In this document: positions 2,635 through 21,592 of the stretch, one piece after another
Layout: each line of letters begins with the position of its first letter
How positions within the stretch are numbered: position 1 is the stretch's first letter
Virus record (IMG/VR): IMGVR_UViG_3300025131_010477
Location: 1 to 38,810 of that record
Strand: one strand, 5' to 3'
DNA length: 38,810 bases
Origin: a virus
Notes under the pieces: generated by a model
The model's input: the letters and a program-made list of their open reading frames with translations, nothing else
Told to the model about the DNA's origin: nothing
Databases searched by the model: none
Program-made: the position numbers and the translations under genes

Positions 2635-2652
2635 TCGGAGGTACAGTGGCGC

Positions 2653-2985: not shown

Positions 2986-2986
2986 G

Positions 2987-3012: not shown

Positions 3013-3015
3013 GAG

Positions 3016-3324
3016 ATGGACGACGAGACCACGACCACGCGTCGCGACTTCCTCCGACGGGCGACCGGCGCCTGCCTGGCCGTTGCGGCCGTTGGCGCTG
3101 GCGCACTGCCGACCGTGACGCCACCCGGAGCGGCGATCCGGAACATCGTCGTCCGGTTCAACGGCCGTGAGGTCGGATACGCGGCAGCATGGACGATCTG
3201 CACACCGTCGCCGCTCGAGCACGTCGAGCTCGATGCTGGCGTGATCGCGGACCTGGCCCCGACCTCCTACGACGTCTCATTCACTGCAAGCGGCCGCCCG
3301 CGAAAGGACAAGAACGATGGGTAA
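3016..3324 (+). CDS. Small exported protein with Tat signal peptide
   Basis: 102 residues. Residues 8-33 form a textbook twin-arginine signal: TRRDFLRR, a moderately hydrophobic Ala/Val/Gly core, then AGALP as the likely cleavage area. The mature part (about 70 residues) begins Thr/Pro-rich, then looks beta-stranded with one Cys and ends in a basic, charged tail. Tat export implies the product folds in the cytoplasm, perhaps with a cofactor or partner, before export. I do not recognise the mature domain. The ATG at 3016 is preferred over the upstream TTG at 2995, because the latter lies inside the palindrome. The 3' end overlaps the next gene by eight bases. Confidence 0.7.
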   Translation: MDDETTTTRRDFLRRATGACLAVAAVGAGALPTVTPPGAAIRNIVVRFNGREVGYAAAWTICTPSPLEHVELDAGVIADLAPTSYDVSFTASGRPRKDKNDG

Positions 3325-3586
3325 GAAGCGAACGCCAACGGATGCCGCCAAGGCCAAGCACGCGCGGAGGAAGCTGCGGCTGGACGCGGCGGCCGCGCCG
3401 CGGAAGAGGGCCGAGGGCCAGCAGCAGCGGCGGGACGCGCGACGTGCGCAGCTCGAACGCGCGATCGGCAAGTGGGAGCACCGCATCGAGGGGCTGGGCG
3501 CTTGCATCGGCGACGCGAAGCGCGAGATCGCGACGATCGACCGGAACGCCAAGGTGGCCGCGACGCTCGCGGCGGCCGCGGAGTGA
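3317..3586 (+). CDS. Basic, Ala/Arg/Lys-rich coiled-coil protein
   Basis: 89 residues, very basic in the first half (KK, RRK, KR, RR clusters) and helical throughout, with heptad-like spacing in residues 45-85. AAAGGA (3304-3309) is a good ribosome site. The composition would suit nucleic-acid binding, but there is no specific domain to name. It overlaps the Tat-signal gene by eight bases. Confidence 0.6.
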   Translation: MGKKRTPTDAAKAKHARRKLRLDAAAAPRKRAEGQQQRRDARRAQLERAIGKWEHRIEGLGACIGDAKREIATIDRNAKVAATLAAAAE

Positions 3587-3589
3587 CGA

Positions 3590-3787
3590 ATGCCACGTGA
3601 CGACTTCGCAGAGCGGCAGGCGCAGCGCGCAGCCATCGAGCGCTGGCGGGCGACCTTCAAGCGCGCGGGCTTCGGCGACCACGCCATCGACTTCAGCTGG
3701 GTTCGTGCGCACGTGATCAATGCGATGGGCGCAGCGGTCGAGGCCGAGTTGTATCGTGACGCGCTGGAGCGGCAGAGTGATGGGTAG
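3590..3787 (+). CDS. Small hypothetical protein (65 aa)
   Basis: Helical, with mixed charge and several Trp and Phe residues (RWRATFKRAGF, DFSWVRAHV). The start lies three bases after the preceding stop and its end overlaps the next gene, so it is probably translated by coupling. No family recognised. Confidence 0.55.
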   Translation: MPRDDFAERQAQRAAIERWRATFKRAGFGDHAIDFSWVRAHVINAMGAAVEAELYRDALERQSDG

Positions 3788-4676
3788 AGCTGGCATGAGC
3801 GACGACGCGCTGGTCAGCTACGACAAGCTGCAGGCCATGTTGCGCCGCGACGACCTGTTGGGCGCGTCGCTCCGGGCGTCGCTCGAGCGGACCGAGGCGC
3901 TGCTCGCCGACCGATTCTTGCCGCCGCGTAGCGGCTTCACCGTTCGACTGAAAGGGACACGCATGCTGAAACCACAACACCTACGACACCTCCTCCGTTC
4001 GTCGCGGAAGCCGAAGCGCTCGGAGGAGCGCGGGCTCGACCTCCCGGACGCGGCCTGGCAGCTGCTCGACGACGGGGCCGAGCTCATGCTCCACGAGAAT
4101 CACGGCCCGTTCGTGATCGCCGACGGTGCGCTCGCGTGGCCGACCGAAGGCAAGCCGGCCGCGTACCTCGTCGACCGCGTCGTCGCGGAGTACGAAGCCA
4201 AGCGCGCCGCTGGTGGCAGCGCCGAGGTCGAGTGGTCCGGGGAGTGGCCGGTGGAGCCCGGCTTCTACTGGTTCTTCGGGCGCCGCGCGGAGGACCGCCT
4301 CTCGGAGCCTCCGGGCCTGCACGCTGCTCAGGCACAGATCATGGTGGAGTCGTTCCTCACGGCCGACGGCGAGCGCAAGTCGCGGGAGTTCCTGCTGGTG
4401 ACGAGCGACGGGCGCCCGGTCGTCCGCGGCCAAGGCTTCACGCACGGTATGTGGGCGCCGATTCAGGCGCCGGACGAGGACGAGCTCCCGATCGACATGC
4501 TCGCGTCGATGCCACCGCCGGACCCGCAGCAGGGCGGCGCGGTCGTGCACTGCGTCCGCGCCGGCCAGTCGCTCTGCGGCGCGCAGATCGGTCCGGGCGC
4601 GACCGTCGCCCGCGTCACCCAGCTCGCGCTGATCTCGTGCCCGACGTGCCGGGCGCAGGCGGAGCGCGTCGGATGA
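3780..4676 (+). CDS. Hypothetical protein with C-terminal zinc-ribbon-like cysteines
   Basis: 298 residues from the ATG at 3780 (GGAG at 3766-3769); an ATG at 3795 is an alternative. The middle (100-240) is mixed alpha/beta with a WPVEPGFYWFFGRR segment. The C-terminus has Cys258, Cys266 and a CPTC pair (287/290), a likely zinc site. A third in-frame ATG at 3963 (Met62) is preceded by AAAGGGA at seven-base spacing, the best ribosome site of the three, so a shorter 237-residue form is plausible. It starts the tightly coupled run that extends to 9015. Function unknown. Confidence 0.65.
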   Translation: MGRAGMSDDALVSYDKLQAMLRRDDLLGASLRASLERTEALLADRFLPPRSGFTVRLKGTRMLKPQHLRHLLRSSRKPKRSEERGLDLPDAAWQLLDDGAELMLHENHGPFVIADGALAWPTEGKPAAYLVDRVVAEYEAKRAAGGSAEVEWSGEWPVEPGFYWFFGRRAEDRLSEPPGLHAAQAQIMVESFLTADGERKSREFLLVTSDGRPVVRGQGFTHGMWAPIQAPDEDELPIDMLASMPPPDPQQGGAVVHCVRAGQSLCGAQIGPGATVARVTQLALISCPTCRAQAERVG

Positions 4677-5741: not shown

Positions 5742-6941
5742 ATGGACATCTTGAACGCACGAGCCGCGATCCAATCCGTCGACGCTGAGGGCACGATGCA
5801 CGTGCTCGTCGAGGTCGAGTGGCCCGAGCGCATGCGCCGGGCGGCCCGCAACTCGCCAGGTGGGCTGCCGGCGATCAGCACGGCGCTCGTCGGCGAGGGC
5901 AAGAGCACGATTCGCGGGAGCACGGCTAAGTCGCTGTACGAGTCGGCGTCGGAGCGCGACAAGCGCGAGCGTGCGGAACGGAAGCAAGTGAGGCAGGCCA
6001 AGCGCCGAGCAAACAAGGCGCTGCGAACCGCGAGACGCAGCAACACCGCGCTGCCGATCGACATCATCGTGTCCGCGCTCGGCGACCTGCCGCCGGACCC
6101 CGTCATCTTGCTGCGCTCCGACAAGCCATACCCGGCCGAGATGTTCCGGGCGCTGTGCAAGGTGCTCTGCACCCGTTTCGGTGACGGCACGCAGGTCGTC
6201 ATGCTCAAGAGCGCCGACACTCTCGACGTCGCGAGCCTGGCCGAGCTGGAGCAGCTGGCGGCCGAGATGAATCAGCGCTTCGGTGAGGTGCGCAACGAGA
6301 GCTGGGTCGCCCGCGCCCGCTTCGCGATCAGTGAGCTCGTCGCCCTCGCGGCGTTCGAAGGGCAGACGCGAGAGCTGGGTGAGGAGGAGCGGCAGCGGCA
6401 CCGTCTCGGCATCGAGTCCGGGCCGGTCACGCACCTGCGGCAGCGCACGTTGGTCGACCGCACCGAGACTGAGATCAGCTTCCGCATCCGCGACGGCTTG
6501 CTGCCCCGCCTCAAGCTGGCCGAAGCCGAGCCGTGGACCAGCGAAGTGATCACGCACGGCGCCGACGACGACGACGACGGGCTCGGGCACATCCCCGAGT
6601 CCCGGCGTGCCGCGTTCCGGCCGAAGGTCCGCGAGCGGCCGCCCATACAGACCCCCATGCAGCGGACGTTCCACGTCGAGGACCTGTTCGGTACGCCGGG
6701 AGGTCCGGTGGCGATGGTCCGTCCCGGTCTTGACGTCCCGGAGCCTGGCGACCTCGTGTGGTTGGTCGACCAGCGGCAGCGCGGTGGTGGTCCCGGCAGC
6801 CTGCGGCCGTGGAAGGGCGCCAAGCTCGTCAAGGTGCTCGCCGTGCACCGTGTCGGCGGCAACGTCGAGGCCGCGAAGCGTGAGCTTCACGACAACTACG
6901 GCCTGCGCTTCGAGGTCGTGCCCGAGACGGTGCAGCCATGA
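5742..6941 (+). CDS. Hypothetical protein (399 aa), largest of the left operon
   Basis: Starts after an excellent AAGGAG (5731-5736) overlapping the previous stop. Residues 55-105 are extremely basic and helical, followed by a folded alpha/beta region (about 106-210), an acidic run of five Asp (about 275-280), and a C-terminal beta-rich region with GDLVWLVDQRQ and PWKGAKLVKVLAVHRVGG. The basic segment suggests nucleic-acid contact. No catalytic motif or known family is evident. The next gene overlaps it by four bases. Confidence 0.65.
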   Translation: MDILNARAAIQSVDAEGTMHVLVEVEWPERMRRAARNSPGGLPAISTALVGEGKSTIRGSTAKSLYESASERDKRERAERKQVRQAKRRANKALRTARRSNTALPIDIIVSALGDLPPDPVILLRSDKPYPAEMFRALCKVLCTRFGDGTQVVMLKSADTLDVASLAELEQLAAEMNQRFGEVRNESWVARARFAISELVALAAFEGQTRELGEEERQRHRLGIESGPVTHLRQRTLVDRTETEISFRIRDGLLPRLKLAEAEPWTSEVITHGADDDDDGLGHIPESRRAAFRPKVRERPPIQTPMQRTFHVEDLFGTPGGPVAMVRPGLDVPEPGDLVWLVDQRQRGGGPGSLRPWKGAKLVKVLAVHRVGGNVEAAKRELHDNYGLRFEVVPETVQP

Positions 6942-7474
6942 GCAACGTGTGGAGCGTCATGGTCACGTGCGCTGGTCTCGACGAAGGCGGCAAGCTGTTC
7001 GCCGAGGCGATGCCGAACCGCTGCACCGAGTACGCGCACCGCGACTACGATGGTCCGCTGCGCGAGGTCAGTGGCGACGGTGGCGGCCAGCAGGGCTGGC
7101 ACCTGGACGTCTGGCTCGGGAGCTACAAGGTCGTCGACATCGATGAGCTGGAGACGATGCTGCGCGAGTGGACTCGGGTGTGGAAGTACAAGGCACTGGA
7201 GCCTGGCGAGCAGCGCTTCTTCGACGCGGACCTCGTCTCGTGCTTCATCTGCTACGAGGAAGACGGCGGGAGTCATGCACGTCCGGTCCAAGTCTGGCCG
7301 CCAGCTCCGACCGGCGCGCCGTGCCCGCACTGTCGTCGTGTCGACCCAGAGCCGCAGCCGCGCACGCTCACTGCGCAGGAGGCGTGCAGCGGATGCAACG
7401 GACGGGCGACCACACACGAGCCGTGTCATGCGTGCGGTGCGCATGTCGCTCCGTTGGAGGTGCACGATGACTGA
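6938..7474 (+). CDS. Zinc-ribbon protein with four CxxC pairs
   Basis: 178 residues. The N-terminal 95 residues are alpha/beta with aromatic residues and no cysteine pair. The C-terminal half has four CxxC pairs: 102/105, 129/132, 150/153 and 163/166, enough for two zinc sites of rubredoxin or DnaJ-knuckle type. No enzyme motif seen. It overlaps its neighbours by four and eight bases. With the proteins at 3780 and 4885 it makes three multi-cysteine proteins in one operon. Confidence 0.65.
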   Translation: MSNVWSVMVTCAGLDEGGKLFAEAMPNRCTEYAHRDYDGPLREVSGDGGGQQGWHLDVWLGSYKVVDIDELETMLREWTRVWKYKALEPGEQRFFDADLVSCFICYEEDGGSHARPVQVWPPAPTGAPCPHCRRVDPEPQPRTLTAQEACSGCNGRATTHEPCHACGAHVAPLEVHDD

Positions 7475-8186
7475 CGAGACGCGCTCGAACATCGCTACTG
7501 CGCAGCAACGTGCTGCGATGCGCCGCAAGTTGTCGCCGTCGGAGCGCGCCGGCTTCGACAGGCTCCGGCCTACGTTCGCCGTCCGGGCGCGCGAGCGCAG
7601 CTTCGTAGCGCGCATCGCGGATGCGATCGCCGACGGCCGCTGCCGGGAAGGGCCGCGCGTCGTGTTGCGGTGGGATAACGGCCGCGTCTCGCTGGCCGAG
7701 CACGACCCGTCGCAGACGGCATTCAGCTACCCGCACACGCTCGAGTGGGCCGAGAAGAACGCCCGACTGCTGATGCCCGGCGACAAGCTCAAGTACGAGC
7801 TGCCCGACGACGACTGCGTGCCGGACGACATCGCTGTCGCCGCTGGCGGTGCGCTCGGCGCGCTGCATCGGCCGCAGCGTGCGGTCGAGCGCGACGGCGC
7901 GATCGGCCGCTTCTGGCGTCACGCACGCAAGATGTCCCAGTACGGGTCGCCGGCCACGTCGCTGTTCCGGCAGGAATTCCCCGGCACCGACCTCGACATT
8001 CACGGCGTCCCGCCGCCGCCGGAGCCGTACGATGACGAACGGACCTTGCGTGGCGGCCGTGGTCGCAAGCCGCCGCTGTCGCCGTACCTGACCGATCGCG
8101 TCGGCGACGTGCTCCGGGATGAGCAACGGCGCCGGCACGCGCGCGCGCACGCGCTCGCACTCTCACACTCAACAAGGAGGACATGA
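7467..8186 (+). CDS. Hypothetical protein (239 aa)
   Basis: Helical, charged N-terminus (1-60), a central part with RVVLRWDNGRVSLAEHD that looks beta-stranded, a PxxPPPPEP linker near 185-190, and a basic His/Arg-rich tail. TTGGAGG precedes the ATG at good spacing although the start lies within the previous gene. No family recognised. Its last four bases overlap the next start. Confidence 0.6.
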   Translation: MTDETRSNIATAQQRAAMRRKLSPSERAGFDRLRPTFAVRARERSFVARIADAIADGRCREGPRVVLRWDNGRVSLAEHDPSQTAFSYPHTLEWAEKNARLLMPGDKLKYELPDDDCVPDDIAVAAGGALGALHRPQRAVERDGAIGRFWRHARKMSQYGSPATSLFRQEFPGTDLDIHGVPPPPEPYDDERTLRGGRGRKPPLSPYLTDRVGDVLRDEQRRRHARAHALALSHSTRRT

Positions 8187-8779
8187 TGACCGACAACGAC
8201 AAGACCGCAGCCGGGACCCTGCAGCCGCCGCGCACGCCGGTGCTCGACAACAAGGGCGTGGCTCGCGCGCGCTATCCGGGGTGGACCGAGTTCCGGCTGG
8301 TCGACCTCGCCGCCGCGCCTGGCATGGTCGGCTACCCGGCGCCTGGGACCGTCGACGGCGATTCGTGGACCATCCTCGACGTGTTCGAGTCGGCCGAGGT
8401 CGTGCTGCTGGGCAAAACCCGCGATGACTACGTCGCCGGCGTCTGCGCCGAGCGCGACAAGGCCATCGCCGAGGCCCACGACGCACGGTCGTCGATGCGG
8501 GAGCAGGAGCGCCAGACGTCCCGTTTCCAGACCGACCTGGCCGTGGCCGAGGACCGGTTGTCCGTCGCGGAGGCCGAGCGCCGGGCGCTGGTCAAGGAGC
8601 GGGCGCGGGACAAGGACCTGCTTTGTCTCTTCGAGGCCGATTTCGCGACGCTCCGCAAGGAGCTGGGCGACGAGCGTCTCCGCGAGGTCGTCGGGCGCGC
8701 CGAGCCGCCGAAGCTCGAGCGCGAGGACGGCGAGCGTTATTCGCGTACGGACCCGTGCGACGCGGCGGACCTGCTGTGA
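8183..8779 (+). CDS. Coiled-coil hypothetical protein
   Basis: 198 residues. An N-terminal domain (about 1-85, with PGWTEFRLVDL and GDSWTILDVFESAEVV) precedes a long charged coiled coil (about 90-165, Glu/Arg/Ala-rich). AAGGAGG (8174-8180) is a very strong ribosome site for ATG 8183 or the adjacent ATG at 8186. Function unknown; the coil suggests oligomerisation or a partner from the same operon. Confidence 0.65.
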   Translation: MMTDNDKTAAGTLQPPRTPVLDNKGVARARYPGWTEFRLVDLAAAPGMVGYPAPGTVDGDSWTILDVFESAEVVLLGKTRDDYVAGVCAERDKAIAEAHDARSSMREQERQTSRFQTDLAVAEDRLSVAEAERRALVKERARDKDLLCLFEADFATLRKELGDERLREVVGRAEPPKLEREDGERYSRTDPCDAADLL

Positions 8780-9015
8780 GTCGCGAGACGCCGTCGCTGC
8801 CTGCGCCTGCGCCCTACACGGACGCCGAGCTGGAGGCGCACCAGCGCGAGGTGGAGCAGTGCGTCCGGGAGGTTCGTCGGATGCCGCGTCGCCGGCGTCG
8901 AGTGTCCGGCGACGCGCCGTGGTGGGCCAAGCTGCTGGCCGTGTTCTTCGGCCTGTCGGTCGGGGCGGCGATAGCCGATGCGATACACGGACCGCCCGTG
9001 GACCCGTGGAGCTGA
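8776..9015 (+). CDS. Small single-pass membrane protein
   Basis: 79 residues from a GTG that overlaps the previous stop (GTGA). The N-terminal 50 residues are polar, ending in a very basic patch (RRMPRRRRR). A hydrophobic helix (about 56-73, LLAVFFGLSVGAAIADAI) follows, then a short tail. By the positive-inside rule the N-terminus stays in the cytoplasm. It ends the overlapping run of genes. Function unknown. Confidence 0.6.
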   Translation: MSRETPSLPAPAPYTDAELEAHQREVEQCVREVRRMPRRRRRVSGDAPWWAKLLAVFFGLSVGAAIADAIHGPPVDPWS

Positions 9016-9074
9016 ACGCCGCTGGATACCGGCCGCAAGGGGCGCTGAGCGCTCTGTGGTGCCGCTGGCGTGGT

Positions 9075-9111
9075 CCTGGTACCCTACCAGGGCCCGGACT
9101 GTTACGCGTAA
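9075..9111. promoter_or_regulatory. Two palindromic sites upstream of the LexA-like gene
   Basis: CCTGGTA and TACCAGG (9075-9081 and 9085-9091) form a 7-bp inverted repeat around CCC, containing the heptamer TACCCTA (9080-9086). TTACGCGTAA (9102-9111) is a perfect 10-bp palindrome. With the motif at 9141-9150, the 138-base spacer holds three operator-like elements. Confidence 0.5.
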
Positions 9112-9140
9112 AGGTGGGCGCGCTCCCCGCCGAGCCGAAG

Positions 9141-9150
9141 GGATACCCTA
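9141..9150 (+). promoter_or_regulatory. GGATACCCTA motif, copy 3
   Basis: Identical to 844-853 and to the reverse complement at 1192-1201. It lies three bases before the GTG at 9154, where bound protein would block transcription or initiation; autoregulation by the LexA-like product is a natural guess. Confidence 0.5.
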
Positions 9151-9153
9151 GTC

Positions 9154-9408
9154 GTGGTGACGGATAAGCAGATCGAGGTGCTACGGGCGTTCATGGACGC
9201 GCGCAGAGCGGACCGGCCGCCCCCGACGTTCCGGGAGCTGTGTGAGCGTTTCGGTTGGAGCTCGACGGGCACGGCGCGTGATCACGTGCAGGCGCTCGGC
9301 CGGCAGGCGCTGCTCGAGGACGTGGTCGGTGTGCGGTCGCGGCGCTGGCGGTTGACGCGCCGCGGGGTCCGGATCGCGCAGGACGCGATCGACGCCGAGG
9401 TCGGCTGA
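9154..9408 (+). CDS. LexA-type winged-helix DNA-binding protein, no protease domain
   Basis: 84 residues from GTG (9154, or the adjacent GTG at 9157). The sequence follows the LexA N-terminal domain: TDKQIEVLRAFMDARR, then PPTFRELCERFGW, then the recognition helix region SSTGTARDHVQALGRQALL, then a wing ending in RRWRLTRRG. The hinge, Ala-Gly cleavage site and S24 Ser/Lys protease domain of LexA are absent, so it cannot self-cleave. Likely role: repressor of phage genes or competitor for a host repressor's sites. Repeats in its own upstream region suggest autoregulation. It separates the left operon from the head module. Confidence 0.75.
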   Translation: MVTDKQIEVLRAFMDARRADRPPPTFRELCERFGWSSTGTARDHVQALGRQALLEDVVGVRSRRWRLTRRGVRIAQDAIDAEVG

Positions 9409-9469
9409 GGCGCAAGCCGGCACTGCCGTCGCTTCTACCACGCGCCGAGGCACCTCACCACCACTGTGA

Positions 9470-9477
9470 TAGTCTGC
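9470..9477 (+). promoter_or_regulatory. Candidate -10 region before terminase
   Basis: TAGTCTGC four bases before the GTG start of terL, the same octamer as at 2980-2987. No clear -35 box or Shine-Dalgarno sequence is visible, so if this is a promoter the message would have almost no leader. Tentative. Confidence 0.25.
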
Positions 9478-9481
9478 GACC

Positions 9482-12244
9482 GTGAGCGTGCGTGCGCCGC
9501 GGGTGGACCAGAAGGTCGTCGACGCGATGTGTCGCCGTTCGCTGGCCTTCTTCGCGAGCGAGAAGCTCATCGGCGATCCAGAACCGCCCTTTTCTGGACG
9601 CTTCCTCGTCGCCGAACATCATGAGGCGTGGTCGGACCTCATCTGCAACTACGATCGCGTCTGCATCGAGGCGGCCCGAGGTCACGGAAAGTGCATGACC
9701 GGCGACGCGCTGATCCTACGGTCGGACGGCGCGCTGATCCGGCACGACGAGTGGCAAGGCGGCGAGGTCTATGCCTACGTGGGCAAGCAGCAGTTCGAGG
9801 CCGTCGAAGCGTCAGCCGCGGAAAGCCAGGGATTACAACCCTGCTTGACCGTGCGTACGCGATCCGGCCGGCAGGTCACCGTGACCACCAACCACCCACT
9901 GCTCGTCGAGGGGCGCGGGTGGGTCGAGGCGGCGGACCTCGTCGTCGGAGACTGTGTAGCGGTGCCTGCTGGTCTGTCCGTCAGCGGCAGCGAGCCGCTG
10001 CGGTGCCCCTGGACGTTGGGGCTGCTCATCGGCGACGGCTCCCTGCAGTCGACGAGCTCGCCGACAGTGACGACCGCCGACCAGGCCGTCGTCTTCGCGC
10101 TTACTGATGAGGTCGAAGCGCAGGGGTGGCACCTGAAGAAGCGAGAACCGCTCGGCTTCGCGCTCATCGCGCCCGGGACGCCGCGCGACTCACGGCCGAA
10201 AGCGTGGATTCGCGAGCTGGGCCTCTTGGGTCGGACGTCGCACACAAAGCGCGTTCCGTCAGCAGTGTTCCAGGCCCCACCCGCAGACGTCGCGGCGTTC
10301 TTAGCTGGTTACTTCGACGCGGACGGCTCGGTGAACAAGCACGGCGGGGGCGCGCTCGAGTACTACTCGGTGAGCGAGGGTCTGCTCCGCGACGTCCAGC
10401 ACCTGCTGCTGCGCTTCGGTGTCCGGAGCACGCTGGCGGTCAAGCGCGGACGTTACCGTGGCGCTGCGCACCTGAGCTGGCGGCTGACCATCCGCGGCGG
10501 GTACATCCTCCGCTTCGCTGGCGCGATTCGTCCGCGTGGACAGAAGGCCGAAGCGCTTGAAGCGCTTGCGCGCGACCTCGAACCCAAGGTGCGGAGCATC
10601 AACTGGAACCAGTGTGCGTACGAGCCGATCGTCGACATCGAGGACGCCGGTGAGCAGGAGGTCTACGCGATCCACGTGCAGGGCCCGGAGAACTACATCG
10701 CCAACGACGTGGTGAACCACAACAGCCACTTCTTTACCCTAGCGCTTCCCCTATGGGATGCCTTCCGCGTCAAGTCGGCCGGCCTCGACCCACCGGACTG
10801 CGTCATCTTCAGTGCGTCGCAGCGGCAGGCGCAGCGGCTGCTCAAGAAGATCCAGATCCAGCTCGAAACGAACCCGAAGCTCGCGCACCTCCTCCCCGGC
10901 GAGCACGAGCGGCAGCAGTGGTCGACGCAAGGCCTCCGGCTCGCCAACGGCTACACGATCAACGCGAGCGGCTACGGCACGAAGGTCCGCGGTGGTCACC
11001 CGCGCCTGATCGTGGTCGACGACGGGTTCAACGACAACACGGCCTATTCCGAGCTGGTTCGCGCCAAGGAGATCGACTACTTCTTCCAGGCCATCCGGCC
11101 GATGCTGATTCCCGGCGGCAAGATCGCCGTAGTCGGCACGCCGCTGCATCGCCAGGACCTCTACGCGCTGCTGTCGAAGAACCCGCAGTACGAGTTTCGG
11201 CGGTACCCTGCCATTCGGGAGTCGGGTCCGCACGAGGGCGGGCCGCTGTGGCCGGAGCTGTACTCGATGGATGACCTCCGCGGCATCGAAGAGGAGATCA
11301 AGTCGATCCGCTTCACCCGCGAGTACCTGTGCCAGCCCGTCGCGGATGGCAGCTCCCTGTTCCCCCGACGGCTCTTCGAGGGCGACGGCGTCGAGCAGCC
11401 GGACATCAAGCTCGGGATGCCGCTCGAGTTCTGGCAGCGGCTGGGTGTTCAGTTCACGGCCATCGGCGTTGACTTCGGCCTGAGCAGCTCGGTGTCGGCC
11501 GACTACACCGTCGTGTGGACTATGGGCCTGGACTCGGCCGGCAACCGCTGGATCATGGACATCTACCGGGAGAAGGGCCTCGAATACACCGAGCAGAAGA
11601 AGCTCATCGTGCACGCCGCGAAGCGGTACCAGGCCGACCTGGTCTACGTGGAGAGCAATCAAGCCCAGCGCATCTACGGTGACGAGCTCCGGAACGAGAC
11701 CGACCTGCCGATCCAGAACCACAACACCGGCGAGAACAAGCACTCGCAGGTGAAGGGGCTCCCGGCGCTCCGCGTGCTGCTTGAGAACAAGAAGTACCGG
11801 CTGCCGCTGGGCGATGAGCGCAGCCGGAAGCTCGTCGGCGCCTGGATCGAGGAGATGCAGGGCGTCACGGTGCAGATGGGCAAGGTGGTCAGCCTGGCCG
11901 AGCACGACGACCTGCCGATGGCCAACTGGATCTGCGAGCGCGCGTTCGCCGATACGCCCTTCGACTTCAGCTTCGGCGAGGAAGAAGGGGACCGCGAGGC
12001 GTTCGACGAGCTGATGCGCGACATCGCGGGCACCGGCGACCCGGCCGACCCCGACTACATCGAGGACGACGCGTTCGTCCTCGGCACGCAGCCGGCTGGA
12101 CGCGGCCGGCCGCCGACGATCAACGCCCGTGCGGTCGACGGCAACCCCGAGGACGTGTTGCAGAACACGCAGCCCCCGGCTAAGAACACGGGCTACCCGT
12201 TCGGCGCGCCCACGGCCGCGCAGATCCTGGGAGGCGGCTTCTGA
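9482..12244 (+). CDS. terL: Terminase large subunit (TerL) precursor with intein
   Basis: 920 residues: 576 of terminase plus a 344-residue intein (71-414). TerL is the ATP-driven motor and nuclease that packages DNA into the prohead through the portal. After splicing the Walker A reads RGHGK-S (66-70 joined to 415). Walker B is LIVVDD (509-514) and the coupling motif VVGTP is at 550-554. The RNase H-like nuclease has D664 (GVDFG), E724 (YVESN) and D809/D810 (AEHDDLP). All motifs are intact. Start is a GTG at 9482 with a very short spacer. No small terminase subunit is recognisable upstream. Without splicing the ATPase would be inactive. Confidence 0.95.
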   Translation: MSVRAPRVDQKVVDAMCRRSLAFFASEKLIGDPEPPFSGRFLVAEHHEAWSDLICNYDRVCIEAARGHGKCMTGDALILRSDGALIRHDEWQGGEVYAYVGKQQFEAVEASAAESQGLQPCLTVRTRSGRQVTVTTNHPLLVEGRGWVEAADLVVGDCVAVPAGLSVSGSEPLRCPWTLGLLIGDGSLQSTSSPTVTTADQAVVFALTDEVEAQGWHLKKREPLGFALIAPGTPRDSRPKAWIRELGLLGRTSHTKRVPSAVFQAPPADVAAFLAGYFDADGSVNKHGGGALEYYSVSEGLLRDVQHLLLRFGVRSTLAVKRGRYRGAAHLSWRLTIRGGYILRFAGAIRPRGQKAEALEALARDLEPKVRSINWNQCAYEPIVDIEDAGEQEVYAIHVQGPENYIANDVVNHNSHFFTLALPLWDAFRVKSAGLDPPDCVIFSASQRQAQRLLKKIQIQLETNPKLAHLLPGEHERQQWSTQGLRLANGYTINASGYGTKVRGGHPRLIVVDDGFNDNTAYSELVRAKEIDYFFQAIRPMLIPGGKIAVVGTPLHRQDLYALLSKNPQYEFRRYPAIRESGPHEGGPLWPELYSMDDLRGIEEEIKSIRFTREYLCQPVADGSSLFPRRLFEGDGVEQPDIKLGMPLEFWQRLGVQFTAIGVDFGLSSSVSADYTVVWTMGLDSAGNRWIMDIYREKGLEYTEQKKLIVHAAKRYQADLVYVESNQAQRIYGDELRNETDLPIQNHNTGENKHSQVKGLPALRVLLENKKYRLPLGDERSRKLVGAWIEEMQGVTVQMGKVVSLAEHDDLPMANWICERAFADTPFDFSFGEEEGDREAFDELMRDIAGTGDPADPDYIEDDAFVLGTQPAGRGRPPTINARAVDGNPEDVLQNTQPPAKNTGYPFGAPTAAQILGGGF
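9692..10723 (+). mobile_element. LAGLIDADG intein inside the TerL Walker A motif
   Basis: 344 residues, in frame. The first residue is Cys71 (CMTGDALIL, splicing block A). Block B is TVTTNHPL (133-140) with the conserved His138. The two endonuclease motifs are LGLLIGDGS (179-187) and LAGYFDADG (274-282). Block F is VYAIHVQGPENYIAND (394-409), and the end is His413-Asn414 followed by Ser415 as the +1 nucleophile. All splicing residues are present, and the acidic residues of both endonuclease motifs are intact, so splicing and homing are both expected. Insertion between Lys and Ser of the P-loop is a conserved site favoured by inteins. Confidence 0.95.
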
Positions 12245-13922: not shown

Positions 13923-15710
13923 GTGGCGGACGACAAAGACAGCGGGTCGTTCCGGCGATCTCTGCTCAGCTTCGCGGCCAAGTCGGCCGCCGCTGGATTG
14001 GACCGCCTCGAGGACACGCTCTTCAAGGGCGAGGAGGCCGACATTGGCGGCGCGGCCGAGGCTGGCGGGTCCGGTCCTCCGGGCGCCGCGGCCAACGCAT
14101 CGGCCACGCAGGGTGCGACCGTCGTCAAGGGACCGCAGGTGCTCGGCGGCCTGCCCCCGGAGATGGGGCAGGCTCCACCGTCGACAGGGCTCCGCGACGC
14201 GATGATCTCGAAGGCGCAGGCGAACGGCGCGCTTCCCGGCGAACCGCTCACTGAAGCGCAGGCCATCTACTGGGACCCCTTCGCCCTCGTCGAGCAGCTC
14301 GGTTACAAAGAGAAGCCGACCGCCGTCACCTACGGCACGCTGCAGGCGATGGTCTGGCGGCTGCCGATCCTGCGCGCGATCATCAAGACGCGCGTGGACC
14401 AGATCGCCGCGTTCTGCTTGCCGCAGCAGCCTCCGCAAGACCCAGGGTTCCGGGTTCGACTGCGCGAGACCAGCCGCACGCCGCAGGTGTACGAGCTTCA
14501 AGAGATGCGCCGCATCGAGGAGTGGCTCCTCACGACGGGCGTCGTGCTCGAGGACCGCCGCGAGCGGCACGGGATGGAGTACCTCGTCCGCCAGATCACC
14601 AACGACACGCTGATGTACGACCAGCTCAACCTGGAGGTCGTCGGCGATCGTAAGGGCCGGCCGTGCCAGTGGTACGCCGTCGACCCCGCGACCGTGCGCT
14701 TCGTCGACTCGGCCAAGCTGGCTCCGGAGCACTCGATGGACGCGCCGTACTGCGTCCAGATCTACGACAACGTCGTCACCGGCGAGTTCACTCGGCGCGA
14801 GATGGTGTTCGGCGTCCGGAACCCACGAAGCGACATCCGCTCGCACGGCTACGGCACCAGCGAGACCGAGATGATGGTCAACACCATCACCTACTTGCTG
14901 TGGGGCATGGAGTACAACGGGCGACAGTTCTCGCAGGGCTCGATCGCCAAGGGCCTACTCAACATCAAAGGGCCGATGCCCGAGCGCCAGCTCCGCGCGT
15001 TTCGCCGGCAGTGGTACCAGATGGTTGCGGGCGTCGAGAACGCCTGGCGCACGCCGATCATCAACGCGGAGGACATGGAGTGGGTCGACCTCAACAAGTC
15101 GAACCGCGACATGGAGTTCGGCGCCTGGCTCGACTTCCTGATCAAGATCGCCTGCGCCATCTACGCGATGGACCCGATCGAGGTGAACTTCAAGTACGGC
15201 GGCTCAGGCCAGAAGGCGATGTTCGAGGCCGCCAACAAGGTCAAGATCGTCGAGTCGAAGGCCAAGGGCCTGCAGCCGCTGCTGAAGTTCGTCGGCAAGG
15301 TGTTCAACGAGAACGTCCTATGGCCGAACACCGAAGACTTCTCGCTCGAGTTCACCGGCTTGTCGCCGATGACGCCGAAGGAGCTCGCCGATCTCGAAAC
15401 GCAGAAGGTCCGGACGTACGTGATGGTCGACGAGATCCGGGCGATGCACGACATGGCGCCGCTCGCTGACGGGCTCGGCCAGATCATCGACTCGCCGAAC
15501 TGGATGGAGGCGCGCCGCGAGCTGCTCCTACAAGAGCAGATGGCCGCGGAGCAGGGTGGCGGCGAGAAGAAGCCGGAGTCGTCATCCTCGAGCGCAACGG
15601 ACTCGAACACGGCGACGCCGGGTACAGCTCCGGGCGGCACGCAGCAGCCGCCACCGGCGGTGACCAAGTCGCTGGCGGACGACTCGACCGTCTGGGACAT
15701 CAGGCTCTAG
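13923..15710 (+). CDS. Portal protein
   Basis: 595 residues from GTG with AAAGGA upstream. The portal is the dodecameric ring at the head vertex through which DNA passes. Diagnostic stretches: ILRAIIKTRVDQIAAFC (about 152-168), an LNLEVVGDRKGRP strand region, WGMEYNGRQFSQGSIAKGLLN (about 324-344), and the long-helix/wing segment with LDFLIKIACAIYAMDPIEV (about 401-419), all typical of HK97-type portals. The first 85 residues are Ala/Gly-rich and the last 60 Ser/Thr/Pro/Gln-rich, both probably disordered. Its position after terL fits. Confidence 0.9.
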   Translation: MADDKDSGSFRRSLLSFAAKSAAAGLDRLEDTLFKGEEADIGGAAEAGGSGPPGAAANASATQGATVVKGPQVLGGLPPEMGQAPPSTGLRDAMISKAQANGALPGEPLTEAQAIYWDPFALVEQLGYKEKPTAVTYGTLQAMVWRLPILRAIIKTRVDQIAAFCLPQQPPQDPGFRVRLRETSRTPQVYELQEMRRIEEWLLTTGVVLEDRRERHGMEYLVRQITNDTLMYDQLNLEVVGDRKGRPCQWYAVDPATVRFVDSAKLAPEHSMDAPYCVQIYDNVVTGEFTRREMVFGVRNPRSDIRSHGYGTSETEMMVNTITYLLWGMEYNGRQFSQGSIAKGLLNIKGPMPERQLRAFRRQWYQMVAGVENAWRTPIINAEDMEWVDLNKSNRDMEFGAWLDFLIKIACAIYAMDPIEVNFKYGGSGQKAMFEAANKVKIVESKAKGLQPLLKFVGKVFNENVLWPNTEDFSLEFTGLSPMTPKELADLETQKVRTYVMVDEIRAMHDMAPLADGLGQIIDSPNWMEARRELLLQEQMAAEQGGGEKKPESSSSSATDSNTATPGTAPGGTQQPPPAVTKSLADDSTVWDIRL

Positions 15711-15719: not shown

Positions 15720-16112
15720 ATGCGCGTCGAACACCAGATCCACGTTCAGATTCACGACGACAGCGACGCGAAGGACGCGTTGTGGGCGCCCGATAAGACG
15801 CTGGCCAAAGAGGTCATCACGAACATGCAGCGGATGACCTCCGGCACGTTCCAGATCGCCGCGGCCGCGACGGAGGTGCTCGCGCTCGGCGACATCACCG
15901 CGGTGCGCGCGATCTACATCGAGGTCGACGACGACTTCAACGTGGTGTGGAACGGCGGTGACGAGATCTTCAATTACCTACTGGCCGACGCGACCAGCGG
16001 CCGCAAGGCGCGTTGCTTCAACGAGATGACCGTGACGGCCTGCTCGATCACCAACCCGGGCGCGGCGGCCATCAACGGCCGCTACGTGGTGTTCGGAGAT
16101 CCGACGGCCTGA
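15720..16112 (+). CDS. Small structural-type protein (130 aa)
   Basis: AGGAGG overlaps the portal stop, giving a strong start. The sequence is beta-rich, with alternating hydrophobic strands (TFQIAAAATEVLALGDI, VRAIYIEVDDDFNVVW, AAINGRYVVFGD), as in small phage decoration or fibre-base proteins. No family recognised. The following gene overlaps its stop by one base. Confidence 0.6.
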   Translation: MRVEHQIHVQIHDDSDAKDALWAPDKTLAKEVITNMQRMTSGTFQIAAAATEVLALGDITAVRAIYIEVDDDFNVVWNGGDEIFNYLLADATSGRKARCFNEMTVTACSITNPGAAAINGRYVVFGDPTA

Positions 16113-16447
16113 TGGGGCGGATCATCAACGATCGAATCTCGCCGCGGCACGTTGAGGCGTGCGTGGACCAGTGCACCGCCGTCGCTTTTCGGCGGCGCGG
16201 GCACGACTTCGTCGTGCAGGTCCCGGGTTCCGAGAACACGCCAGCGATGCACACCGTGAAGCCGTCGTGGGACTACACCATCGACGGCCAGTCGCGGATC
16301 ATGTGCCTGACCATGGACGTGGAGCAGTACATCAACGCGCGACGGCGCACGTTGGAGAAGCACAACGGCACGTTGACCAAGTTCGCGCGGATCTCGCTGC
16401 AGTACGGCGACGATCTCAACACGTGGCCCTTTGGGCGCACGAGGTAG
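16112..16447 (+). CDS. Hypothetical protein (111 aa)
   Basis: Mixed alpha/beta. The ATG overlaps the previous stop (TGATG), so translation is coupled. It has two cysteines near the N-terminus (ACVDQC) and a DYTIDGQSRIMCLTMDVEQYI segment. No family recognised. Its place between portal and the 2H phosphoesterase protein suggests head assembly or a virion component. Confidence 0.55.
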   Translation: MGRIINDRISPRHVEACVDQCTAVAFRRRGHDFVVQVPGSENTPAMHTVKPSWDYTIDGQSRIMCLTMDVEQYINARRRTLEKHNGTLTKFARISLQYGDDLNTWPFGRTR

Positions 16448-16450
16448 CCG

Positions 16451-17890
16451 ATGCACTTTCGTCTTGAAGCTGCGCAAGGTGAGTTGCGGTCGAAGGGTCG
16501 GCAGCTGGTCAAGGCGATCGCCGATCGGCTCGTCGAAGAGGACACCGAGCTCGCGAAGGCGCTCCGCGGGCTGGTCGTGCCGATCAAGGCATACGTGACG
16601 ATTCCGATCCCCGCGCACCTCGCCCTGGACTGGCCGGCAGATGGCCGCGTCGGTGAGGACTCGACGCCCCCGCACTTCACGGTGCTGTACATCGGCGAGA
16701 TCGAACCCCTGCGCCGCAACGCCGTACTGACCGCCGTGCAAGCGGCCATCGAAGACGTCCCGGGGTTCTCGGCGCAGCTGTCTCGCGGCGTCTCGTGGTT
16801 CACGTCGCACGAGGGCAAGGAGATCGCGCATAAGGGCCTGGTGGCTGGTGCGGCCGAGCTGCGCTGGTTGCACGAGCGCGTGCGTGGTGCGGCAGCTGGT
16901 GCTGGCTGCGCGATCAAGCACGCGGGCCGCGAGTTCAAGCCGCACTCGACTCTTGGGTACCTCGACGCCCGCGACTACCCGCAGAGCTGGCCCATCCCCG
17001 AAGGTTCGTTCGTCGTCGACTCGATCGACGTCGGCTTCTCGGACGGAGACTGCCGGCGCTTCATGCTCGCGGACCCACTGTCCAAGAACGACAGCGACGC
17101 GTCGTACAACATCGCGGCCGGCTCCCAGATGGGCGCGCGGGCGGTGGGGCCTGGTGGCTCCGGACCGAACATTGCGTCGTTCTCGCCAGTCCAGCTCAAG
17201 CCGCAGACCTCGGAGCGCATGCGCGAGCGCGTGACCGGTCAGGTCCGCACCGACGAGGAGCTCGCCTTCGCGCGGCACGCCATGGACGTGCGCAAGGAGG
17301 GCATGAAGCTGATCTGGAACACGCCGGACGCCACGAAGGTGTTCGAGCTGCCGCAGCCGACGCACCGGAGCGACACGGCGCAGAACGCGCTCGACGAGGC
17401 GCCGGCGCAAAAGCTCCGGCTCGAGGACAACGCGGACCGGCTACGCGCGGGCTCTGCCGAGTCGGCGCCGAACCACATGGGCCAGAAGCCAGTCGGTCCG
17501 GCGCTGATGCTGCCGGCGAGCTACACGAAGTGCGAGCTGCCCGCCGACGCGACGCCGTCTGCGGCGCCGACACTCGGCATGAGCGCTGCGGCCCCGAAGC
17601 CGCGGAGCGTCTCGTTGAGCGGACCGCTCGGTGTCGGCGGCACGCACACGGTGAAGAAGCGCGGCATAGGCGAAGTTACACTCGGTCGGACCGAGGTGGG
17701 ATACACTGTCGCCATGGACGGCTTCGACCTGGTGGAGTTCGCTTCCTTGTCCGCGGCCTGCGATCACGTGTGGGTGCGGACCAAGGGCTACGAAGACGCC
17801 GCGTCCTACAAAGCCGCGCTCGGCGTGAACAAGGTGCCCAGCGGAGCTGGATGGAAGTTCTGGGGCCTCAAGCGCAAGAGGGCCGCCTGA
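16451..17890 (+). CDS. 2H phosphoesterase domain fused to an unknown C-terminal region
   Basis: 479 residues. Residues 45-195 carry the two signature motifs of the 2H (LigT-like) superfamily: His75-Phe-Thr77 in PPHFTVLYIG and His165-Ser-Thr167 in KPHSTLGYL, 90 residues apart, each at the end of a beta strand. The family includes 2'-5' RNA ligases, cyclic phosphodiesterases and the anti-CBASS protein Acb1. Both catalytic His-x-Thr motifs are intact. The C-terminal 280 residues are a Pro/Ala/Lys-rich linker plus a terminal domain (about 395-479, TEVGYTVAMDGFDLVEF) I cannot name. Substrate is unknown. It is embedded between portal and protease, so the protein may be packaged in the virion. Confidence 0.75.
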   Translation: MHFRLEAAQGELRSKGRQLVKAIADRLVEEDTELAKALRGLVVPIKAYVTIPIPAHLALDWPADGRVGEDSTPPHFTVLYIGEIEPLRRNAVLTAVQAAIEDVPGFSAQLSRGVSWFTSHEGKEIAHKGLVAGAAELRWLHERVRGAAAGAGCAIKHAGREFKPHSTLGYLDARDYPQSWPIPEGSFVVDSIDVGFSDGDCRRFMLADPLSKNDSDASYNIAAGSQMGARAVGPGGSGPNIASFSPVQLKPQTSERMRERVTGQVRTDEELAFARHAMDVRKEGMKLIWNTPDATKVFELPQPTHRSDTAQNALDEAPAQKLRLEDNADRLRAGSAESAPNHMGQKPVGPALMLPASYTKCELPADATPSAAPTLGMSAAAPKPRSVSLSGPLGVGGTHTVKKRGIGEVTLGRTEVGYTVAMDGFDLVEFASLSAACDHVWVRTKGYEDAASYKAALGVNKVPSGAGWKFWGLKRKRAA

Positions 17891-18156
17891 TGCCCGTGCA
17901 TGTCCCGACGAAGCTCGTGCTCGACGCCGACAGTCCCGGGGCGATTCGGTGTCCCGGGTGCCGGAACAAGGCGCTGCAGAAGTCGTCGGACGGTGCCCTG
18001 ACGCTCCGGCCCAAAGGTCCGGTCCGCTTCGAGGACGACCGCTGCTTCATGAAGTGCTTCTACTGCGACCGCTCGATCGAGTTGCCGCTAGCGCTCGCCA
18101 AGAGCGAAGACGCTGCGCCGGCGCGCGTCGTGCTCCGCATGCCCGCGCGGCGCTAA
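17890..18156 (+). CDS. Small zinc-finger protein (two CxxC)
   Basis: 88 residues; the ATG overlaps the preceding stop. CPGC (21/24) and CFYC (56/59) frame a 31-residue loop, a Com/zinc-ribbon-like arrangement, followed by a hydrophobic strand and a basic tail. Proteins like this bind nucleic acid or act as assembly adaptors. It is the last gene before the structured spacer at 18157-18346. Confidence 0.6.
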   Translation: MPVHVPTKLVLDADSPGAIRCPGCRNKALQKSSDGALTLRPKGPVRFEDDRCFMKCFYCDRSIELPLALAKSEDAAPARVVLRMPARR

Positions 18157-18172: not shown

Positions 18173-18263
18173 ATTGCGCCCAGCTTGACCGGACTCCACT
18201 ACTACCGTAAGACCAAAGACCAAGGCTCGGTCGGGAAACGTCGTTCGCGCGGCAGATTCCGGG

Positions 18264-18318
18264 AAGGGGCGCATGTGAGGACCTGGCACGGATCCCCACC
18301 TGCGCCCCTTTTCTATTT
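18264..18318 (+). terminator. Long hairpin with T-rich tail (intrinsic terminator or attenuator)
   Basis: AAGGGGCGCA (18264-18273) pairs perfectly with TGCGCCCCTT (18301-18310), followed by TTCTATTT. Inner pairs GTG/CAC (18275-18277 with 18297-18299), GGA/TCC (18279-18281 with 18293-18295) and CC/GG extend the stem almost to a six-base loop. It lies 29 bases before the protease start, within one strand of head genes, so it may attenuate rather than end transcription. Confidence 0.6.
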
Positions 18319-18346
18319 AACCCCGACCCGGCCTGTGGAGAACGCT

Positions 18347-19294
18347 GTGGATGAGCTCTGGGACGAACTGGTGAAGGGCATGTCGGGCGACGACACGTTC
18401 CGCTACTTCGCGCCGCTCTCGTTCTTCGAGAAGGCCAACGCGCCCAAAGGCGAAGAACGCCGTTTCGGCGGCATCTCCACGACGGACGAGAAGGACCAGG
18501 AGGGGGAGAACATCCTCCAACGCGGCCTCGACTTCGACAGCTACTTCATGAAGAAGGGCTGGTTCAACGACAACCACGCCAAGAACGCCGGCGGCATCGT
18601 CGGGTACCCGTCCAGCGTCCAGTTCTTCAAGAAGGGCGCGCGACTGCCTGACGGTCAAACGGCCAAGGCGAACCTGCACTGGACCGAGGGCTACTTGCTC
18701 AACGGCCACCCGCCCGCCGACGCCATCTGGTCGGCCGGCATGGCCCTGCAGAAGTCCGGTGGGCGCCGAAGTCTTGGGCAGTCCATTGAAGGCAAGGTGC
18801 TTCGGCGGTCAGGGCCGAACAACAAGACGATCGCCCGCGCGCTCGTGCGCAACGTGGCCATCACACACTGCCCCGTCAACGTGGGCAGCTCGCTCAACTT
18901 CCTCGCCAAAGCGCTCGTCGCAGCCGAAGAGGCCGACGGCGAAGAGAAGCAAGACGGTGACGAGGGCCAGTCCAAGGCGCCGAAGCCAGCGCAGAAGGAC
19001 GAGAAGATCGCCGCGCTGGCCGTGGGCGCGCCCGGTGGTGACGGCGCCCCGGCGACCGGCCTCGGCGAGCAACCTGGGTCTTCGGCCGGGCGCATCCTCA
19101 CGGCGCAGTCGCTCGAGGGCGACCTGGTCAACACACTCGCGGAGGGCCGTTCGTCCGCCACACACAAGTCGCTGTCGCGCGGCCAGGCGATGGACCTGAT
19201 CTTTGCGCGGTTCCCGAGGCTCAGCGCCGCCGAAGCCGGCCGCATGCTCGACCTCACTTACACGATGAAACAGAAGGGGCTTCTAGCGCCATGA
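18347..19294 (+). CDS. Prohead (capsid maturation) protease
   Basis: 315 residues from GTG 18347 with GGAG at 18337-18340; the frame extends further upstream but through the terminator hairpin, so that extension is rejected. The protease cleaves scaffold and capsid proteins during head maturation. Features of phage prohead serine proteases: FGGISTTDEKDQEGE near the N-terminus, His77 in NDNHAKNAGGIVGY, GYLLNGHPPADAIW, and Ser146 in the GQSIEGKV motif. The C-terminal third is Lys/Glu/Gly-rich linker plus a short helical domain. It is directly followed, with ATGA overlap, by the scaffold-like gene and then capsid, the standard order. Confidence 0.75.
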   Translation: MDELWDELVKGMSGDDTFRYFAPLSFFEKANAPKGEERRFGGISTTDEKDQEGENILQRGLDFDSYFMKKGWFNDNHAKNAGGIVGYPSSVQFFKKGARLPDGQTAKANLHWTEGYLLNGHPPADAIWSAGMALQKSGGRRSLGQSIEGKVLRRSGPNNKTIARALVRNVAITHCPVNVGSSLNFLAKALVAAEEADGEEKQDGDEGQSKAPKPAQKDEKIAALAVGAPGGDGAPATGLGEQPGSSAGRILTAQSLEGDLVNTLAEGRSSATHKSLSRGQAMDLIFARFPRLSAAEAGRMLDLTYTMKQKGLLAP

Positions 19295-20094
19295 AGATGA
19301 CCAATTGCAAAGGGTGCAACAAGGAGTACCCGGACAACGTGCTCAACGACGGCAAGTGCAAGGGCTGCATGAGCAAGGGTGAGGAGAACACCGTGACTAC
19401 GGACGAGCTCAAGAAGTCGATGGACAAGATCGAGCAGCTGACCAAGGCCGAGACGCCGGAGGCGCGCAAGCAGGACCTCCTGCAGAAGAGCCTGGACGGC
19501 AGCGCCACCGCCGAGGAGTCGGTCGAGCTGGCATCGCTGCTCAAGGGCGAGAAGCCTGCTGGCGCGGACGTCGCCGGCGACCTGACCAAGTCGCTCACCG
19601 ACGGTGACGACCTGCAGAAGTCGATCGACGTCAGCAGCGCGCTGGCCGACCTGGTCGGCAACCTCGAGAAGGCGCTCGGCTCCGTCGGCGAGCAGATCGA
19701 GAAGTCCGCGTCGCACCAAGGCGAGGTCAACCTCGTGCTGGCCAAGGGCCTGCTCGACAGCTGCAAGCTCACGGTCCAGACCAACGATCTGGTGAAGAGC
19801 CTGCAGACCGAGATCGAGTCCTACGGCCGCCAGCCGGCCGGACAGCGTCGCTCGGCGAGCACGCCGGCCGACGTGGTCAACAAGTCGCACGGCGGCCAGG
19901 CCCCGAGCGAGGACCAGATCACCAAGAGCGACGTCATCGGGCTCATGGAGGCCATGTACGACGAGGGTCGTACGCCGATGGCGCCGTGCGGCGAGGATCT
20001 CAACAAGGCCATCGCGAAGATGGAGAGCGTCGGCGACGTCAGCGCTCCCATGATGCGCGACCTGGCCGCGTACCGCTCCAAGCGGATGAACTAA
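19291..20094 (+). CDS. Scaffold-like protein with N-terminal zinc knuckle
   Basis: 267 residues. Residues 1-30 have CKGC (6/9) and CKGC (23/26), a zinc knuckle. The rest is acidic/Lys-rich, helical and coiled-coil-like (40-190), typical in composition and position of a capsid scaffold between protease and major capsid protein. An internal cluster of KS and LQKS repeats is visible. A zinc knuckle on a scaffold is unusual. An alternative is a head-associated structural protein. The ATGA overlap with the protease gene implies coupled translation. Confidence 0.6.
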   Translation: MKMTNCKGCNKEYPDNVLNDGKCKGCMSKGEENTVTTDELKKSMDKIEQLTKAETPEARKQDLLQKSLDGSATAEESVELASLLKGEKPAGADVAGDLTKSLTDGDDLQKSIDVSSALADLVGNLEKALGSVGEQIEKSASHQGEVNLVLAKGLLDSCKLTVQTNDLVKSLQTEIESYGRQPAGQRRSASTPADVVNKSHGGQAPSEDQITKSDVIGLMEAMYDEGRTPMAPCGEDLNKAIAKMESVGDVSAPMMRDLAAYRSKRMN

Positions 20095-20140: not shown

Positions 20141-21592
20141 ATGCAAGGTCACAACATGGTGAGCTGGCGCGACTACGAGGGTGCCGACGGTCACGGGCAG
20201 GCAACTGTTCAGGACGTCGTCGAGCTCAAGAAGGCGCTGTCCGCAGGCTCTTCGATCAACGCGCCGGCGACCGCTGCCGGAGAGGGCTTCCCGCTCCGCG
20301 TCGAGAGCCTCGAGCGTACGCTCAAGAACACCACGTATCGGATGGAGCACATCCGCCTGTGGAAGAACATCCCGAAGGTCCCGGCCTACAACACGGTCGA
20401 GGAGTACAACCGGGTGAACGAGTACGGCGCGCACGACCAGGGCGCATTCATCCGAGAGGGTGAGCTTCCTGGCGAGACCGACGCGACGTACGAGCGGGTC
20501 TACGCGACGGTGAAGTACCTCGGTACTCTTCGCCGCGTCACCCACGTCATGAGCCTGGTGAAGCCGGCTCACGGCAACGTCATCGCGCAAGAGACCGTCG
20601 CTGGTACCATGTACCTGCTCCGTCAGCTCGAGCGCGCGCTGTTCTACGCGGACTCCACGCTGGACACCGACCAGTTCGATGGCTTCGAGGCGCTGATCGC
20701 GAACAACGCGCCGGCGACGCACATCATCGACCTGCGCGGAGCCCCGCTCGCCGAGGACAACCTCATCGACGCGGCGCTGACCATCCAGAACGCGCCCGCG
20801 TACGGCATCCCGACGCACCTCCACATCAACCCGGCGGTCAAGGCCGATCTCGTGAAGAGCTTCTTCCCGAAGGCGCGCTACGACCTGATGGAGAAGCAGG
20901 ACGGCATGGTCGGCCTGAACATCAACGGGTTCACCTCGCCGGCCGGCGACGTGCGCTTCGAGCCGAACGTCTTCATCGACGACGGCGGCGTGGTTCCGGG
21001 CGCGGCCGTTGGCCCCGCGGCCAACATCCCGGCGACGCCCCTGCTCACCGTGGCTCCGGCCGCGGGCGGCGCAGCGACCGGGCCCTTGTGGCTCGCGGGC
21101 ACGGGCGACCACGACGTGGGCGCCTACATCTGGCGCATCGTCGCGGTGAACCGCTTCGGCCAGAGCGCGTCTCGTCGGTTCCCCGCGGGCGCGGCGACGT
21201 TCACGCCCACGGCGGGCCAGTCGGTCACGATGACCACCACCGATGGTGGTGGCCCGGCCGCGTCGTACTTCAAGGTCTACCGGACCTTGCGGGCGGGCGC
21301 GGACCTGACCCAGCGGCTCATCCTGCGGGTGGCCAACGGCGGCGGCGCGGTGCTGATCACGGACCTCAACGCGAGGCTCCCGCGGACCACGACCGGGTTC
21401 ATGTTCCAACAGGACAACACGAACATGTCGTTCGCGCAGCTCGCGCCGATGATCAAGGTGCCCCTGGCCATCGTCGACACGGCGATTCGCTGGATGCAGC
21501 TCATCTACGGAACGCCGAAGCTGTACACGCCGAACCACAACGTCCTCTTCCGGAATATCGGACGCGCCGCCGACTTCGTCGGCACGCCGTAG
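20141..21592 (+). CDS. Major capsid protein (HK97 fold) with inserted FN3-like domain
   Basis: 483 residues. GAAGGAAGG gives a strong ribosome site, as expected for the most abundant protein. The shell part shows N-arm/E-loop-like sequence (85-115), RRVTHVMSLVKPAHGNVIAQE and LERALFYAD of the spine/P-domain, THLHINPAVKADLVKSFFPKARYDL, and a C-terminal PNVLF-type end (PNHNVLFRNIGRAADF). Residues about 298-412 look like a fibronectin type III or Ig-like insert (GAYIWRIVAVNRFGQSAS, ASYFKVYRTL, VLITDLN). Such inserts are displayed on the capsid surface. A strong hairpin follows the gene. Confidence 0.9.
   Translation: MQGHNMVSWRDYEGADGHGQATVQDVVELKKALSAGSSINAPATAAGEGFPLRVESLERTLKNTTYRMEHIRLWKNIPKVPAYNTVEEYNRVNEYGAHDQGAFIREGELPGETDATYERVYATVKYLGTLRRVTHVMSLVKPAHGNVIAQETVAGTMYLLRQLERALFYADSTLDTDQFDGFEALIANNAPATHIIDLRGAPLAEDNLIDAALTIQNAPAYGIPTHLHINPAVKADLVKSFFPKARYDLMEKQDGMVGLNINGFTSPAGDVRFEPNVFIDDGGVVPGAAVGPAANIPATPLLTVAPAAGGAATGPLWLAGTGDHDVGAYIWRIVAVNRFGQSASRRFPAGAATFTPTAGQSVTMTTTDGGGPAASYFKVYRTLRAGADLTQRLILRVANGGGAVLITDLNARLPRTTTGFMFQQDNTNMSFAQLAPMIKVPLAIVDTAIRWMQLIYGTPKLYTPNHNVLFRNIGRAADFVGTP

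Follow-up and report, generated by a model that had tools for sequence, protein, structure and literature searches.

A 2H phosphoesterase domain inserted into a candidate packaged protein encoded between the portal and head protease genes of an uncultured virus

We confirmed, from sequence profiles, alignments and a structural model, that the open reading frame at positions 16451-17890 of the uncultured virus record IMGVR_UViG_3300025131_010477 (IMG/VR; 38,810 nt, the whole of which is referred to as the window) carries a genuine 2H phosphoesterase domain with its predicted catalytic tetrad intact. As judged from comparison with relatives, the domain is inserted between residues 1-40 and 211-479 of a carrier protein. 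The best overall explanation, to which we give an even chance, is that the gene encodes a polyvalent-type carrier with an inserted 2H domain that would be packaged, injected and able to blunt an early host response. An initial sequence-only reading of this DNA had described a 2H phosphoesterase fused into a head-module protein located between portal and protease. The location holds, and the fusion proved literal, since in two relatives (L003 and L004) this protein occurs without the domain. The features of the region are as follows.

13923-15710, + strand: portal protein of the SPO1 type (PF04860, phrog_15361).
15720-16112, + strand: small conserved gene of 130 aa that follows the portal gene, with homologues in L034 and L046.
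16451-17890, + strand: whole ORF, carrier plus inserted 2H domain, 479 aa, ATG start (the start region of L003 is the same but has GTG).
16451-16563, + strand: N-terminal part of the carrier, up to about residue 38, common to relatives lacking 2H (blastn homology to L003 ends at 16563).
16564-17082, + strand: inserted 2H module, missing in L003 and L004, which have a linker of about 55 bp there (blastn break points, MAFFT alignments).
16664-16972, + strand: predicted 2H phosphoesterase core, residues 72-174 (PF13563, AlphaFold2 model, Foldseek).
16673-16681, + strand: first predicted catalytic motif, H75-F-T77.
16943-16951, + strand: second predicted catalytic motif, H165-S-T167.
17083-17539, + strand: conserved middle or linker part of the carrier, 86% identical to the L003 protein.
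17540-17872, + strand: C-terminal domain, residues 364-474, common to slot proteins of 2180-2789 aa.
17890-18156, + strand: small four-cysteine (CxxC...CxxC) gene between the slot protein and the protease, with homologues in nearly all slot loci.
18185-19294, + strand: head maturation protease, homologous from roughly residue 66 onwards (phrog_1028, E=5e-31).
19291-20094, + strand: scaffolding protein (phrog_15087).
20141-21592, + strand: major head protein (phrog_752, E=3e-83).

Since the PHROGs library gave no match for ORF 16451-17890, the label of head-module protein rests on position and relatives; in that sense the label stands, although no named family backs it. PADLOC found no defence domain in the ORF. 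An antisense ORF at 16082-17410 was rejected as a spurious high-GC shadow, the + frame being backed by homologues and by the dN/dS of the flanks (see below). Elsewhere in the window, the large terminase gene (9482-12244) is interrupted by an intein that includes a LAGLIDADG endonuclease (Pfam matches Intein_splicing and LAGLIDADG_3), and the terminase of the near relative L034, which lacks residues 71-413, shows the empty intein site. The gene at 35391-36350 codes for a radical SAM protein that has a SPASM domain; it lies on the minus strand, opposite to its neighbours, and downstream of the tail region.

The profile PF13563 (2_5_RNA_ligase2) matched residues 72-174 with E=2.9e-8, its score of 34.3 bits exceeding the cut-off of 27. 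When the domain was aligned to four distant homologues (Rctr197k, L010, L011 and L012; 29-42% identity), the two His and the two Thr did not vary in any row, and the surroundings of the first motif followed a signature close to GRxGEDSxPxHxT; a further candidate, L008, was discarded as a chance match. An AlphaFold2 model of residues 41-212, computed from four sequences, reached a pLDDT of 82.8 and a pTM of 0.81, and its top Foldseek matches in the PDB were all 2H enzymes, with E. coli LigT first (E=1.6e-8), followed by D. radiodurans CPDase and human Usb1. Thus the predicted fold is 2H-like and the His residues are kept in homologues, the two properties on which the sequence-only reading had staked its assignment. 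A phmmer search of the PDB with the full protein returned nothing, and the profile search alone gave matches. The best matches by both fold and profile, E. coli LigT/ThpR (5LDM) and D. radiodurans CPDase (5H7E), have HxT motifs as in the window but are cellular stand-alone enzymes, and the window 2H falls below the cut-off of the ThpR/LigT equivalog TIGR02258 (25.3 bits versus 65.7). Two scans of bacterial genome contigs revealed no bacterial homologue of the 2H domain, and thus pointed to no origin in a host gene. Enzymes of the 2H family hydrolyse phosphodiesters independently of metals, and by analogy the window 2H would have the same activity. The 2H fold alone does not tell the substrate.

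Comparison with near relatives exposed the borders of the insertion. L003, an 88-kb record, and L004 are identical to each other over the carrier region, and the L003 locus consists of portal, small genes, the same carrier, protease, scaffold and major capsid protein (MCP) genes. The L003 carrier is 324 aa long and lacks 2H, with both flanks conserved (73% identity to the window over carrier residues 1-45). At the DNA level, blastn homology between L003 and the window ends at window position 16563 and restarts at 17083, with 85% identity before the break and 89% after it, and the break points are separated by 519 bp in the window versus about 55 bp in L003. No second 2H was found elsewhere in the 88-kb L003 record. 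This clean, in-frame absence from L003 and L004 therefore marks the 2H domain as an optional module, one that appears not to be required for making the carrier nor, by extension, for building the head. The carrier parts are under purifying selection, with a dN/dS of about 0.15-0.2: in a comparison with L034 that covered the flanking carrier parts only, dN and dS were 0.09 and 0.60 for the N part and 0.10 and 0.51 for the C part. A single virus with 2H is known in the lineage, represented by the window and its 66-kb twin (99.96% identity across 35.9 kb). Five more distant relatives sharing the C-terminal domain also lack 2H, and the distribution weakly favours gain of the domain in the window's lineage rather than loss.

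The C-terminal domain, of about 100 aa, keeps the signature F-x-S-L-S-A-A-x-D-x-V-W ... G-W-K-F-W-G. Its AlphaFold2 model had a pLDDT of 63.5 and no PDB match. A motif in this region resembles the RAMA DNA-binding domain, but PF18755 gave nothing at E<=10 and this assignment was rejected. The domain (17540-17872 in the window) also occurs in L037, L039, L040, L043 and L044 and so connects the short slot proteins with giant ones.

A survey of the slot between portal and protease with the protease as bait yielded 20 loci; the portal as bait yielded three near relatives only. Wherever the contig was long enough, a single gene order was found: portal, small gene, slot gene, four-cysteine gene, protease, scaffold, MCP. 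The slot protein itself ranged from 324 to 2789 aa, with lengths of 324 and 479 aa in the group that includes the window, 640-1220 aa in L045-L051, where it is sometimes split into two genes, and 2180-2789 aa in L037, L039, L040, L043 and L044, whose proteins share window residues 364-474 at 35-46% identity. The slot proteins of L045-L049 carry InPase (PF18823) and, in one case, LPD1, the 'large polyvalent protein-associated domain'. Bacillus phage SPO1 has a related portal and a related protease; there the second directly follows the first, with no slot gene. From these gene orders and domain contents, the window protein stands at the short end of a range of polyvalent-type proteins encoded at one site. 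Several slot proteins have features of their own. In the giant protein of L043 (2345-9313), the short motif [ND]NFETMP or a close variant recurs five times, where shuffling predicts 0.07, and the giant protein of L044 (2738-9280) has two motifs of this type; the repeats may serve to link modules or may be sites at which a protease cleaves between them. The L045 slot protein (6873-9611) combines InPase with Hint/intein-type domains, and the L005 stretch 1-3978 likewise starts with sequence that looks intein-like by eye.

2H domains near the portal are found in other phages. The closest relative of the window domain (41% identity, both HxT motifs present) belongs to a protein of Virus Rctr197k (KX853510, Rctr197k_173) that has 2039 aa, where it occupies residues 1765-1870, close to the C-terminus; unlike the window protein, the Rctr197k protein is a giant with two InPase and several DUF7178 stretches, and its carrier is unrelated. 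In L011, the 2H gene is flanked by a MuF-type gene and by a gene (2133-3650) that joins a D12-class adenine methyltransferase to an S78 (XkdF-like) head protease, a fusion that we note in its own right. Cultured Gordonia phages have the gene row portal, 2H, ADP-ribosyltransferase, HNH. In Gordonia phage GMA6, the 2H gene gp12, annotated 'RNA ligase', likewise follows directly after the portal beside effector-like genes, but it is a separate gene whose product has only remote similarity to the window 2H (hhalign 96%, E=2e-9). One small gene separates portal and 2H in ChisanaKitsune, and Microbacterium phage OneinaGillian has HxT motifs within a post-portal 'capsid morphogenesis protein'. Orf10 of Gordonia phage GMA2, a 'putative structural protein' that follows Orf9, has HLT/HIT motifs at its end, and the BFVD structure prediction for Orf10 came up as a fold match; the 2H profile did not align to Orf10. 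Many actinophages have portal-adjacent 2H genes named 'RNA ligase' (L028 7888-8862 and Gordonia phages among them). Judging by their 2H phosphoesterase motifs and their alignment to the 2H profile, this name is misleading.

2H domains were previously reported to occur in polyvalent proteins, fused to MuF or portal, and never to associate with RNA ligases; such injected 2H domains were predicted to cleave RNA or to degrade nucleotide signals (Iyer et al. 2017, PMC5512222). The internal Dar proteins of phage P1, including DarB (about 2000 aa), leave the virion with the DNA (PMC12810830). Like the polyvalent proteins of Iyer et al., the window 2H lies inside a head-module protein near the portal, and the corresponding slot in relatives holds multidomain InPase/LPD1 proteins. 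Unlike them, the window protein is short (479 aa) and has one recognisable enzymatic domain, its other recognised part being the conserved C-terminal domain, and its 2H is a mid-protein insertion that is present or absent among near-identical phages. The general idea is thus already published, and the window is a new instance of it in which the presence/absence evidence is unusually clear. We consider it highly probable that the 2H domain is a cargo module. Position and relatives suggest that the protein is packaged and injected: the carrier would enter the procapsid, and the 2H domain would pass into the host along with the DNA, where the substrate of its metal-free hydrolysis could be an oligonucleotide, either cyclic or with 2'-5' or 3'-5' linkages, or else an RNA phosphodiester. 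Most likely it would serve to blunt a response that the host mounts early, through removal of a nucleotide second messenger or through cleavage or trimming of host RNA. Early counter-defence through removal of a nucleotide signal is a real possibility, which we place somewhat short of even. Only tentatively do we propose the fuller version, in which the slot of this SPO1-type lineage would be a cargo dock where a packaged carrier gains and loses counter-defence enzymes in frame, and the 2H domain would destroy a host defence nucleotide signal at DNA entry, before phage gene expression.

The injected domain could instead be an Usb1-like RNase or RNA-end enzyme that trims or cuts host tRNA, mRNA or crRNA early, in which case it would be an effector of host takeover and not an eraser of signals. 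Usb1 structures rank high in the fold search (E=4e-7), the 2H neighbours beside the Gordonia portals are effectors (the ADP-ribosyltransferase and the HNH nuclease), and an RNase is also what Iyer et al. favoured, by analogy with PBECR fusions to MuF or portal (PMC5512222). Against it, the profile search put LigT and CPDase somewhat ahead of Usb1, and we regard this alternative as rather unlikely, if worth keeping in view.

Known anti-CBASS enzymes such as Acb1 have been studied as separate phage proteins. The sequence-only reading had linked the window domain to Acb1 and had called for a structure comparison, in which LigT came first and the structure of Burkholderia phage BCSR5, named Acb1, came 40th (Foldseek E=5e-4; profile E=0.006). 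The window domain and T4 Acb1 (57B) share a phage origin, the 2H fold and the HxT/HxT tetrad, but T4 Acb1 is a separate 152-aa protein without detectable sequence similarity to the window domain: the Acb1 profile PF23474 gave no match at E<=10 in the window or its 66-kb twin, and the hhalign alignment to T4 Acb1 (54% over 47 columns) was out of register, pairing the wrong motifs. With LigT/ThpR and CPDase ranking ahead as well, the specific link to Acb1 was not borne out. A strict Acb1-type enzyme, hydrolysing cyclic di- or trinucleotides in an Acb1 pocket, is therefore improbable in spite of the common tetrad, the weak profile and fold match to the BCSR5 structure and the sub-threshold Acb1 profile matches of the L010-L012 homologues. 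Among the features of Acb1 are base-stacking aromatics, Glu141 and a C-terminal lid (PMC9117128). As 2H folds have been adapted repeatedly to cutting immune nucleotides (PMC11410667), Acb1-like action is possible without Acb1 membership, and anti-CBASS action is one possible reading of the substrate among several. As a separate observation, T4 acb1 (L058 253-711) adjoins ipI, a gene for an internal virion protein, which is probably a coincidence.

RNA repair, which the sequence-only reading had named as the main alternative, has lost ground. The enzyme would open the 2',3'-cyclic phosphates that anticodon nucleases of the host produce, the ends then being religated, and the nearest solved relatives of the domain are indeed ThpR/LigT and 2',3'-cyclic phosphodiesterases. 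However, with positive controls, PF09414 RNA ligase was absent from 17 records, among them those of the 66-kb twin and of the 197-kb Rctr197k, and RtcB was absent from the six records searched; the genomes are partial, and every one of the IMG/VR records may be a fragment. This absence rests on PF09414 and RtcB, a search with PF09511 (T4 Rnl1 family) having lacked a positive control and not being counted. Because neither ligase was found, and with a virion-linked position odd for a repair enzyme, we view RNA repair as quite doubtful. Finally, that the 2H fold is merely a structural or binding module of the head protein, as its place inside a head-module carrier might suggest, is very improbable given that the catalytic His and Thr are invariant across the distant homologues and that relatives assemble the same module without 2H.

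The slot survey provides a simple map for finding further packaged effectors in uncultured SPO1-like phages, and the pair of viruses with and without the module offers a natural comparison, which suggests that the enzyme is dispensable for head building. Should the head indeed contain the 2H domain, the enzyme could be active ahead of any phage transcription, which would change how nucleotide-signal defences are tested.
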